NCBI GenBank assembly: GCA_001567185.1
Contig: LNFR01000052.1
Span: 1-64,000 of the forward strand
Length of the DNA stretch: 64,000 nt
Direction of reading: 5' to 3'
From: Bacteroidetes bacterium OLB12
GTDB lineage: Bacteria > Bacteroidota > Bacteroidia > Cytophagales > Cyclobacteriaceae
Part shown: piece after piece, positions 57,933 through 62,615 of the stretch
How the letters are laid out: each line of letters begins with the position of its first letter
Position numbering within the stretch: the first letter of the stretch is position 1
Position numbers and translations under genes: made by a program
Notes under the pieces: model-generated
What the model was told of the DNA's origin: nothing
The model's database searches: none
What the model saw: only the letters and a program-made list of their open reading frames with translations

Positions 57933-59427
57933 TTATTTTTTGCGGCCAATCCCAAAGCGATTGAGTTGTTTTAACAGAAACTCGTTCCCGTCTGGTGTAG
58001 CTTTCGAATAAAAAATCAGTAGAGAGAATAGTATGGTGATGGTTGCGGAGCGAAGGACAATGTCAACAATTGTATTTTCAAATGTTGGAATGAATAGGTT
58101 TAATCCAATCATGATCGCAGCAATAATCAGCACTTTCAGGGAGTTCCAGTCAAAGGGCTGTATCTTTAGTTTATACCAGATGAAGAAGTATTTCAGAACA
58201 TTGAATGAAATCAGCGCCAGTGCAGAACCCATTGCAGCACCGTTGATTCCGTAAACCGGAATCAGGATGTTGTTACTCACAATCACGATAACGGCCAGCA
58301 AGGTGAGTAACAAGATATTGAATGCATAGTATTTTGAGAGCACAATAATCTCACTGCTGGGACCAAACAACATATCCACCAACTTGCCAAACCCAATTAT
58401 AATCACGACCCACTTTCCGGCCTCGTAAATTTCCTGTTTCGGTATAAGCGAAAAGATATTATCGAGATTAATGTACACACCAATCAGCAACAAAGCCCCA
58501 ATAATAAACTGGTTGATAGCAGTTTTTTGGTAAATCGTTTTTATATCAGCCAGATCATTTTTCTCGAAGGCCCGGGCAATCAAGGGCATGGCTACCTGGC
58601 TTAAAGCTCTTTTTGGAATTTCAATAATGGTTGCCATATAAAATGCCGTGGTATAAACCGCATTGGCGGCCAGGCCCAACATGCCCGATACCATCATACT
58701 ATCCACTTTGCCAATCAGGATCATACCTGCCGTGCCCGCAAAACTCAATGAACTGAAAATTACCAGCGATTTTATCTTATCTCCTGGTATGGCCTCAGGT
58801 TAAAAGTGAATGAAAACTTTTGAAGGAAAATGAGATAACCCACCAGCAGCAACAAACAAAACAGATAGCCCAGTACCGTGCCAACAATAAATTGATTGTA
58901 GGTATATAACCTTGAAAATAGGCAAGCACCAATAGCGCCAGCATGAGTCTTACCACAATTTCGCGCAGCAGGCTGGGAAAGATCATTTTTAATAATGAAC
59001 GCGAATATGCTTCCAGCAATGAAGTGATTAATAAAATCAAAGTAAGCCATAGAACTATAGACGCATACTGAATGATTTCACTAGCATTGGCTTGAAAGTA
59101 AGAAAGAATGTTTCCTTCAAATAATTTGAAGGTGATAAAGAAAATAGCGAATCCACTTAAGGCAAGTAGCGTAATCAGGCTGATAAAACCGGCCTCGGTA
59201 GTTTTGTCTTTTACCAGTTGCGGATAAAACCTGAAAATGCTTTGGGCTAATCCAAATGTAGCAAATGGTGCCAGCAGAATGGCAGCATCCTGAATGGTGC
59301 GAAGCAAACCCACTTGCTCCGGTTCCAGAAATTTTGGGAACAGGTACAATAAATTGATATAACCAATTACCGCCCCGGCATAGGAAATAATAGTGGTGTA
59401 AATGCTTTGGCGGATGACGAGGCCCAT
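57933..59427 (-). CDS. Polysaccharide flippase (Wzx/MATE-like), frame broken twice
   Basis: About 498 residues and 12-14 membrane segments are expected. The first frame (MGLVIRQSIYTTIISYAGA to YFQGYIP) runs to about 58908; the second carries YNQFIVGTVLGYLFCLLLLV to FTFNLRP at about 58800; the third carries IPGDKIKSLVIFSSLSFAG to the end (LNRFGIGRKK). One missing C near 58909 and one missing base near 58796 join them. The family moves lipid-linked sugar repeats across the inner membrane. The ATG overlaps the stop of the ATPase gene (TAATG), and its first codons are duplicated upstream of that gene. Confidence 0.85.
59392..59421. repeat. 30-bp direct repeat, copy in flippase start
   Basis: AGTGGTGTAAATGCTTTGGC and the following CGGATGACGAG match 60663-60692 with one mismatch. 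On the minus strand it encodes codons 3-12 of the flippase (LVIRQSIYTT). Confidence 0.88.
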
Positions 59428-60551
59428 TATGAAATAAACGGTTGGTAGTTGTGAGGAGTGATTACGCGATGTTCGCTTTCAGGATAGGCATTTGTAAATG
59501 TTGTCGGGGCTTTCTCTTTTTTTACGGTTCCCCATTTAAATTCGAAAGTATAAAGTTTGCCATCCCGTTCTTCGATGTAATCAATTTCTTGTTGTTGCTT
59601 GGTTCTCCAAAAAAACTTATTCGACCAAAGATTTGTGTAACTCGTAAATTTCAGACGCTCGGTTAGAATAAAATTCTCCCAAAGAGAACCAATATCCTTC
59701 CTGAGTTCTGCTGGTTGAAAGTTGGCGATAATAGCATTACGCACCCCGTTGTCATAAAAATAAATCTTACGGCTTTTCTTCAGTTCATTTCTAAGGTTTC
59801 GGCTAAAAGAAGGCAACCTGTAAACCACCATTGTTTTTTCCAGTAAATCGATGTACCGGCTTACGGTTTGCGGATCGGATTTAACCAGATCAGCTATCTC
59901 GTTGTAGCTTACTTCAGAACCAATTTGAAGGCTTAATGCCTGAAGTATTTTTTCAATAACCTCCGGTTTTCTAACATCTTTAAACGAGAAAAGATCTTTA
60001 TATAGATAGCTGTCAGTAAGATTTTTCAGGATGCTTTTTTCTGAGCCGGGATTATTGACAACATCCGGATACATTCCATAAATCAAACGTGTGGTTAATA
60101 ACCTGTTCTCTTCCAGAAAAGAGTTGTGTTCAATTAATTCGGCCATCGACAACGGGTACATAATGAACTCCCATTTTCTACCTGTCAATGGCTCGTTGAT
60201 TTCATTGGCTAGCTCAAGCGCGGATGAGCCTGAAACAATTAACTGCACAGATGTAAGCTGATCGAGAATGAGCTTGAGGCTCAGGCCAATGTTTTTTACC
60301 CGTTGTGCTTCATCTATAATCACTAATGTATGGTTGCCTATTAGTGCTTTAAGCTCGGTAGAAGTCTTGTTAAAAAGTAAGGTCCGCATATCGGGTTCAT
60401 CGCAGTTGATAAATAATACCTTGTTGCGCCATTTCTCCGAAATGCTCTTCAACAGGGTAGTTTTACCCACCTGGCGCGCCCCAATTACAATTACGGCTTT
60501 TCCTGCGCTTAAGTGCGATTTTACCAATATTTCCAGCTTTCTTGCGATCAT
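59427..60551 (-). CDS. AAA_14 / DUF4143 ATPase
   Basis: 374 residues: an N-terminal AAA+ domain with Walker A GARQVGKTTLL (about 24-34), Walker B LVIIDEAQRV and sensor region VSGSSALEL, then a winged-helix part (YNEIADLVKSDPQTVSRYID) and a C-terminal DUF4143 nuclease-like domain (ENFILTERLKF, EIDYIEERDGKLYTFEFKWG, similar to the E..D..E.K core of PD-(D/E)XK folds). Such ATPases are very numerous in Bacteroidota and archaea; their role is unknown. The gene sits inside a polysaccharide operon between exact repeats, and a 34-bp palindrome covers its start codon. Confidence 0.9.
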   Translation of the reverse strand: MIARKLEILVKSHLSAGKAVIVIGARQVGKTTLLKSISEKWRNKVLFINCDEPDMRTLLFNKTSTELKALIGNHTLVIIDEAQRVKNIGLSLKLILDQLTSVQLIVSGSSALELANEINEPLTGRKWEFIMYPLSMAELIEHNSFLEENRLLTTRLIYGMYPDVVNNPGSEKSILKNLTDSYLYKDLFSFKDVRKPEVIEKILQALSLQIGSEVSYNEIADLVKSDPQTVSRYIDLLEKTMVVYRLPSFSRNLRNELKKSRKIYFYDNGVRNAIIANFQPAELRKDIGSLWENFILTERLKFTSYTNLWSNKFFWRTKQQQEIDYIEERDGKLYTFEFKWGTVKKEKAPTTFTNAYPESEHRVITPHNYQPFIS

Positions 60552-60583
60552 AATCCTATAAAGTTATAACTTTTTTGGATTAT
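60550..60583 (-). promoter_or_regulatory. 34-bp interrupted palindrome at ATPase start
   Basis: Outer arms ATAATCC and GGATTAT lie symmetrically, three bases from each side of a perfect 14-bp palindrome AAAGTTATAACTTT. The element touches the ATPase ATG (60549-60551). Symmetry and position suggest an operator for a dimeric regulator, possibly the ATPase itself through its winged helix, but that is inference. Confidence 0.6.
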
Positions 60584-60662
60584 AATCTTTAAAAAGTCAT
60601 GAAGTGCGCTTATTAGAAATTCAAGGAAGCATGTGCAGCAAAATTGGAGAAACAAATTGCCG

Positions 60663-60692
60663 AGTAGTGTAAATGCTTTGGCGGATGACGAG
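60663..60692. repeat. 30-bp direct repeat, upstream copy (relic of flippase start)
   Basis: Same 30 bases as 59392-59421 with one mismatch. It is preceded, in reading direction, by an ATG at 60697, 22 bases after the methyltransferase stop, where a flippase start would be expected in an uninterrupted operon; ATGAGCTCGTC here parallels ATGGGCCTCGTC at 59427, one base shorter. Confidence 0.85.
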
Positions 60693-60718
60693 CTCATGAG
60701 TCTTGCTTGTGTTATCTT

Positions 60719-61252
60719 TTAGCTTCTACAATATAATACCTGGGGGGTAATATATCGCAGCAACGGACGAACACCGAACACTCCGGTGGGTGAAGTCCAT
60801 TTTTCTGAACGAACTATTTGCCAACCGCTTTTTTCCAATAACCAATCAAACTGCCAGTCTTCAAATTCATGAAAGTGTTGATCCCATCGATCATTTTTAT
60901 TGCGATAGGCTCTGGCAAACCAGAGTGACAAGGGGATGCTTGCATATAATCGTTTTGCCTGCAGATTTTTTAAAACTCCCATTGGATTAATGAGATGCTC
61001 AAGAATTTCAAATGCAAAGGCAGTTTCCGTATTAAATTCACCAACAGATTCAGGATAGATATCCAGATCTTCCCCTTTTGTATTGACTATCGCGTATCCT
61101 GCTTGTTCGAATAGTTTTGAAAGCGGATTGGTTATGCCAATGTCTAGCACCTTACTGCCAGTTGGCAAGGTTTGCTTTACAAAAGCAAGAGTTCTTGTAT
61201 AACGCCTGCTTAATGTTTTATTGCTAAGACTATAGCTTTCAGTAGAATCCAT
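60719..61252 (-). CDS. Class I SAM-dependent methyltransferase
   Basis: 177 residues with the SAM-binding loop GSKVLDIGITNPLSKLFEQ (motif I, about 33-50), acidic loop GEDLDIYPE, and the AFAFEILEHLINP motif typical of Methyltransf_11/23 proteins. Probably modifies a sugar or lipid intermediate of the surface polysaccharide made by its neighbours. The start lies directly after the glycosyltransferase stop. Confidence 0.82.
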   Translation of the reverse strand: MDSTESYSLSNKTLSRRYTRTLAFVKQTLPTGSKVLDIGITNPLSKLFEQAGYAIVNTKGEDLDIYPESVGEFNTETAFAFEILEHLINPMGVLKNLQAKRLYASIPLSLWFARAYRNKNDRWDQHFHEFEDWQFDWLLEKSGWQIVRSEKWTSPTGVFGVRPLLRYITPQVLYCRS

Positions 61253-62574: not shown

Positions 62575-62615
62575 ATCCTTGAAAAAGTCAAATGCTATTT
62601 GAAATTTTCAAGGAT
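62575..62615. promoter_or_regulatory. Long hairpin upstream of the 2-epimerase gene
   Basis: ATCCTTGAAAA (62575-62585) pairs with TTTTCAAGGAT (62605-62615); inside, TCAAAT (62588-62593) pairs with ATTTGA (62597-62602) around GCT, leaving a 2x2 internal loop. No T-run follows. It lies in the 335-base gap (62470-62804) between divergent genes; apart from it I see nothing there. It could be a leader structure or a protein-binding site. Confidence 0.5.

Follow-up and report, generated by a model that had tools for sequence, protein, structure and literature searches.

Evidence for insertion of a one-gene ATPase unit at the start of a flippase gene, with duplication of the target and flanking repeats at related loci

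An AAA_14-DUF4143 ATPase gene of the candidate defence family PDC-S01 stands between two copies of the start of a flippase gene for sugar export in the window, the whole 64,000-nt stretch of DNA analysed here (genome G000). Comparison with related loci supports its insertion as a unit at that start. We document the insertion, the empty sites of relatives, the duplication of the target, the independent repetition of such events, both at the flippase gene and at wecB, and, across the family, an excess of flanking repeats over neighbouring genes. With a probability that we put at roughly 0.58, the ATPase is a one-gene accessory unit that was gained without an integrase, with target duplication, through host recombination of transferred DNA.

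The flippase locus in the window

The genes are read from the minus strand in the order glycosyltransferase, methyltransferase, ATPase, flippase. The features of the locus are:

57933..59427, minus: flippase (Polysacc_synt / MatE likeness), in two ORFs through frame shifts in the assembly
59392..59427, minus: present flippase start, the second repeat copy, overlapping the ATPase stop by one base
59427..60551, minus: AAA_14-DUF4143 ATPase (Pfam; PADLOC PDC-S01)
60549..60583, minus: operator-like palindrome, overlapping with the start codon of the ATPase
60586..60662, minus: left part of the insert, between the relict and the ATPase operator
60663..60697, minus: relict of the flippase start, 35 nt, with likeness to flippase nt 1-36
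60719..61252, minus: methyltransferase upstream of the insertion, with a C-terminal frame shift at a run of C
62576..62614, plus: solo 39-bp palindrome upstream of wecB, like the operators of DUF4143 ATPases in the genus

The repeat copies (59392-59421 and 60663-60692) are 30 nt long, identical at 29/30 positions and spaced by 1271. Their score of 27, ungapped or gapped, compares with maxima of 12 in ten ungapped shuffles and 11 in 200 gapped ones. Read on the minus strand, the copies are alike from the ATG through flippase nt 36. The upstream copy is a dead relict, since in codons 2-3 it has lost one base and changed another (ATGAGC-TCG against ATGGGCCTCG); one further substitution lies near its end. 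Its ATG falls 21 nt past the stop of the methyltransferase ORF as called in the window, and 14 nt past a TAA when the methyltransferase is read as in relatives, the two distances arising because the window frame shifts at the run of C. In G051, which has no ATPase at the locus, the flippase ATG follows the methyltransferase stop after 14 nt, and G023 has the same string of TAA, 14 nt and ATG as the window; both the window and the G023 assemblies show a disturbed frame towards the methyltransferase end. By its sequence and place, then, the upstream copy is a relict, truncated and standing at the flippase's native position. The frame shifts of the window flippase and methyltransferase may be assembly errors or real decay. 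Near codon 175, where the assembly has unknown bases, the G023 flippase likewise changes frame.

Besides the ATPase, the only ORFs of at least 80 aa between the repeats are opposite-strand ones overlapping it, and Pfam found no recombinase, transposase or integrase among them. The first-pass annotation had described a segment bounded by 30-bp repeats with one mismatch, holding an AAA_14/DUF4143 gene and no recombinase, its second repeat copy being the present flippase start overlapping the ATPase stop. All of this stands: Pfam agrees on the domains, the repeats lie beyond the shuffles, and the ATPase stop shares one base with the flippase ATG. Compared with all loci that we fetched, the left parts of the window and G057 inserts had matches only within the same genome.

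Seven PDC-S01 models match the ATPase, the best (PADLOC) over positions 1-373 of 375 with E=3.8e-163, and we place the protein in this family on these matches. Passages of PMC12988326 rank PDC-S01 fourth in frequency among defence systems across prokaryotes, describe an ATPase fused to a PD-(D/E)XK domain, and report that most such defence candidates await validation. Those passages, and those on the family in PMC13356809, deal with abundance and with transfers between domains and do not treat the mode of insertion; a limited literature search found no description of it for the DUF4143/PDC-S01 family. D324, E337 and K339 are invariant in 37/37 aligned ATPase proteins and by our reading may form a PD-(D/E)XK-like set. 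The predicted model (mean pLDDT 89.7) resembles generic AAA+/STAND/ORC/RuvB/TnsC/MuB folds in the PDB, with query TM of 0.22-0.46 among the 50 matches listed; searching the PDB by sequence gave no credible match (best E 0.048). Among plasmids, 87 records have relatives, each below 60% identity.

Empty sites, repeated insertion and operator scars in relatives

Twenty-three loci without this ATPase have the flippase N-terminus, and none of the 13 tested shows its flippase start a second time in the 1.5 kb upstream. It had been set beforehand as a check that relatives lacking the ATPase should not hold both copies, and the insertion came through it; the empty sites also uphold the view that the flippase took in about 1.27 kb at its 5′ end and kept a whole start.

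ATPases at least 75% identical to that of the window stand directly upstream of this flippase at 7 of 7 loci found (the window itself, G023, G009, G066, G050, G057 and L142), behind three different upstream genes. The duplicated start is clear in the window and G057 and reduced to 10 bp in G023, and no relict was detectable at the other four. G023, about 94% identical to the window genome, has the insertion in common with it, and its 10 bp of relict by themselves fall within the shuffle range. G057 (apparently JAHBUB010000058.1) carries a different flippase allele, and it is this allele that is duplicated there (31/31); its upstream gene resembles the glycosyltransferase-like gene that precedes the G021 flippase. 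At L142 the ATPase is 84% identical to the window's and the flippases only 60% over their first 175 residues, so the ATPase gene has moved apart from most of the flippase; this pair stands behind yet another upstream gene. Insertion happened more than once, given the own-allele copy of G057 and the discordant divergence at L142: the same site was occupied independently in G000/G023 and in G057, with indirect evidence for L142.

A second case splits wecB in G009: a distantly related DUF4143 ATPase (about 27% identical) has a 193-bp relict on one side and a complete wecB on the other. The duplication covers the first 193 bp of the gene; its copies are 97% identical and differ by 14.5% from G058. 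The DNA before the relict matches that before wecB in G051 and G058, which places the relict at the native wecB position, and in four relatives (G000, G023, G058 and G051) wecB is single and full-length, with no ATPase there. The copies differ in one 5-base patch, at four bases of which the relict is G051-like. Also in G009 (L223 8700-10066), a glycosyltransferase-methyltransferase tract of the operon is 89-96% identical to G051, against about 64-82% in adjoining steps; to judge from these identities it is a recent exchange, ending shortly before the ATPase (10445).

The operator pattern of the window ATPase, which misses the variants carried by G023 and G057, occurs in 7/62 genomes of the genus, in one place each and always upstream of this flippase. 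In G058, G040 and G008 the ATPase is absent and its operator still lies 22-25 nt before the flippase. Because the pattern always stands at this place, these solo operators are best read as loss scars. Spacer DNA is common to G008 and G009. A second palindrome, of the wecB type, was found in 8/60 genomes: in six it lies directly upstream of a DUF4143-type ATPase (19-58 bases from the ATPase match), among them the one splitting wecB in G009, and in two it stands alone upstream of wecB (window 62576-62614, and G023). The window copy is probably the scar of a second, lost ATPase. Palindromes scoring at least 12 near the gene start mark 28/197 DUF4143 loci against 2/346 neighbouring ORFs. Operator-like stretches on both sides of the ATPase were seen at L211 (70/70), L212, L198, L341, L352 and L329; recombination between such copies would leave one operator by itself. 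Gains and losses can be read from the duplicated flanks and the operator scars.

Flanking repeats across the family and in two control families

We surveyed 203 loci: 80 collected by protein similarity, 80 DUF4143 loci from the taxonomic family and 43 from the genus. They held 210 ATPase ORFs, of which 197 were kept after removal of weak, short-flanked and redundant ones. Flanking direct repeats with a score of at least 24 were found at 38/197 DUF4143 loci and 6/346 other ORFs (p=1.2e-12). By set, the counts for DUF4143 and neighbours are 5/38 vs 0/54 (genus), 20/77 vs 4/173 (similarity) and 13/82 vs 2/119 (family). That other DUF4143 loci should also have duplicated flanks was the other check named beforehand, and the counts agree with it.

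The insert between the copies measures 1.12-1.93 kb, about one gene, and the duplications run from about 30 to more than 400 nt. Gene starts make up six of the 38 repeats (two flippases, wecB, two glycosyltransferases and an aminotransferase, some named by likeness); the L159 repeat pairs the starts of two pilin-like genes, probably paralogues. Several repeats are gene ends (e.g. L089, L164, L204, L310 and L322; also L149, whose flank was too short for the 197-locus survey), and the remainder are mostly non-coding DNA or operator copies. At L220, L162, L173 and L184 the surrounding DNA is rich in repeats, and these four may be unrelated. Insertion at gene starts, which the first-pass annotation had offered as a rule, is therefore not supported as one across the family.

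Two other accessory families served as controls: AAA_21 (50 of about 90 listed places) and HipA (30 of about 100, two dropped for short flanks). Both carry flanking repeats more often than their neighbours, AAA_21 at 5/50 (4/30 earlier; p=0.007) and HipA at 3/28 (p=0.02). Against DUF4143 from the same taxonomic sample the difference is not significant (p=0.25 for AAA_21, p=0.37 for HipA); against all DUF4143 loci the values are p=0.09, p=0.2 and, for both families together, p=0.048. Since the controls have repeats too, flanking duplication does not show the ATPase acting, and the earlier suggestion that the ATPase itself could be responsible for the insertion is not supported. Family-specific transposition as the sole cause was not upheld for the same reason, and the neighbouring-ORF control by itself would have misled on family specificity. 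In these bacteria flanking duplication seems to mark the gain of accessory genes, perhaps more strongly so for DUF4143. Integrase-free gain is thereby measurable here, at 16-19% for DUF4143, 10-11% for the two other accessory families and 1.7% for neighbours.

A tighter criterion, with both copies close to the gene, gives 32/197 for DUF4143 against 1/50 for AAA_21 and 2/28 for HipA (p=0.003), or 11/82 against 3/78 in the matched sample (p=0.03); it was picked after the data had been seen, and we give little weight to its suggestion that DUF4143 genes move alone. The AAA_21 loci with direct repeats are L376, L363, L381, L391 and L375, and in four of these five the downstream copy lies several hundred bases off, as if in larger insertions.

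Route of gain

For the route of gain we infer that recombination by the host is the most likely, ahead of a homing-like process. Operator, promoter and AAA_14-DUF4143 ATPase (PDC-S01) would have been gained as a unit in the common ancestor of the window genome and G023, with the start of the flippase gene as insertion point. The incoming DNA would carry the ATPase joined to a homologous flank, recombine through that flank on one side and have its other end joined illegitimately. About 36 nt of start sequence, the recipient's own, would then stay upstream as a relict and decay, with a complete start downstream, its ATG overlapping the ATPase stop. The enzymes would be the host's and not the ATPase. 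Homology-facilitated illegitimate recombination, in which one end is joined by homology and the other illegitimately with no integrase, is described in PMC3240628 and would give these junctions; no donor molecule was found.

The outcome would be an 'insertion with long target duplication', a pattern known from restriction-modification genes (Nobusato et al. 2000 and Furuta et al. 2010, both as cited in PMC3031569). As there, an accessory gene with no recombinase of its own lies between long, variable direct repeats of a target that is uninterrupted in relatives: we find flanking target repeats, a single target in relatives and no transposase or integrase in the window insert. Unlike that case, the unit here consists of one ATPase-nuclease gene, assigned to a candidate defence family, of which one subfamily recurs at one gene start. 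The arrangement is not that of a DNA transposon: the window insert holds one ATPase gene, and the duplication length is not fixed.

Support for the host route comes from the repeats at other accessory families and from the G009 tract exchanged with G051, which ends near the ATPase. Differences between coding copies at seven loci fall on codon positions 1, 2 and 3 in numbers of 21, 15 and 49 (49/85 third; L161 was excluded, its duplicated stretch lying in no clear gene), so that some copies behave as diverged alleles. The excess is carried mostly by L089 (23/34 at third positions), with 4/4 at L164; at L149, L204 and L096 codon positions do not point to alleles and the copies look like neutral decay. 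Codon positions, the wecB patch and the exchanged tract together favour recombination between strains. Against the host route, the G000/G023 (36 nt) and G057 (31 nt) events end at nearly the same place, a coincidence that a random illegitimate end would not favour and that favours site preference; in G057 one and the same allele makes up both copies, as would follow from a target-site duplication; and no relict was detected at 4/7 flippase-linked ATPases, while the codon test is not allelic at 3/7 loci.

Homing endonuclease genes are nuclease-linked and are found repeatedly at one conserved coding site. The ATPase gene likewise recurs at one coding site, its nuclease proposed from the motif. 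The ATPase-nuclease could recognise the conserved first codons of the flippase and make a staggered break of about 31-36 nt there; its own gene would be copied in, with fill-in regenerating the start and other subfamilies aiming at other genes. Such a process would account for the 7/7 loci directly before this flippase behind three different upstream genes, the discordant ATPase and flippase divergence at L142, the two duplications that arose independently at this place, and the conserved PD-(D/E)XK-like residues. Yet the window locus has a duplication of about 30 bp, and homing is not known to leave one of that size; other subfamilies duplicate gene ends and non-coding DNA, over lengths of about 30 to more than 400 nt that imply no fixed stagger; and other accessory families have repeats at similar rates. 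We consider homing-like insertion unlikely. Vertical inheritance of an ATPase already placed before the flippase in the ancestor of the genus subgroup, the repeat being a later local duplication, seems rather unlikely as well. It gains from the solo operators of G058, G040 and G008 and the spacer DNA of G008 and G009, which suggest an early ATPase that was later lost, and it may hold for G009, G066 and G050. For the window and G057 it fits poorly: the window relict is almost unchanged though the flippases of G000 and G009 differ by 24% in DNA, it stands at the spacing of the clean G051 site, and G057 duplicates its own allele. An assembly chimera or a chance repeat might be suspected from the frame shifts in neighbouring genes, but the arrangement recurs in the G023 assembly (10 bp of relict at the same place) and in G057, which makes either extremely improbable.

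A broader proposal, which we regard as quite doubtful, is that PDC-S01 ATPase-nucleases are self-mobilising one-gene elements, each subfamily aiming its nuclease at the opening codons of one host gene. Insertion with a duplication would restore that gene, the element would couple itself to it, and its loss would leave the operator as a new promoter element. If true, a candidate defence gene that is among the commonest in prokaryotes would be selfish and homing.

As for the target itself, third positions in flippase codons 1-12 are 74% conserved, against 39-61% in the other stretches compared (eight genomes); this is only mildly more, and special conservation was dropped as a sign of targeting. 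The flippase-start site seems open to insertions: in G008 (L024 2750-4600) an opposite-strand ORF of 389 aa lies between methyltransferase and flippase, adjoining the solo operator.
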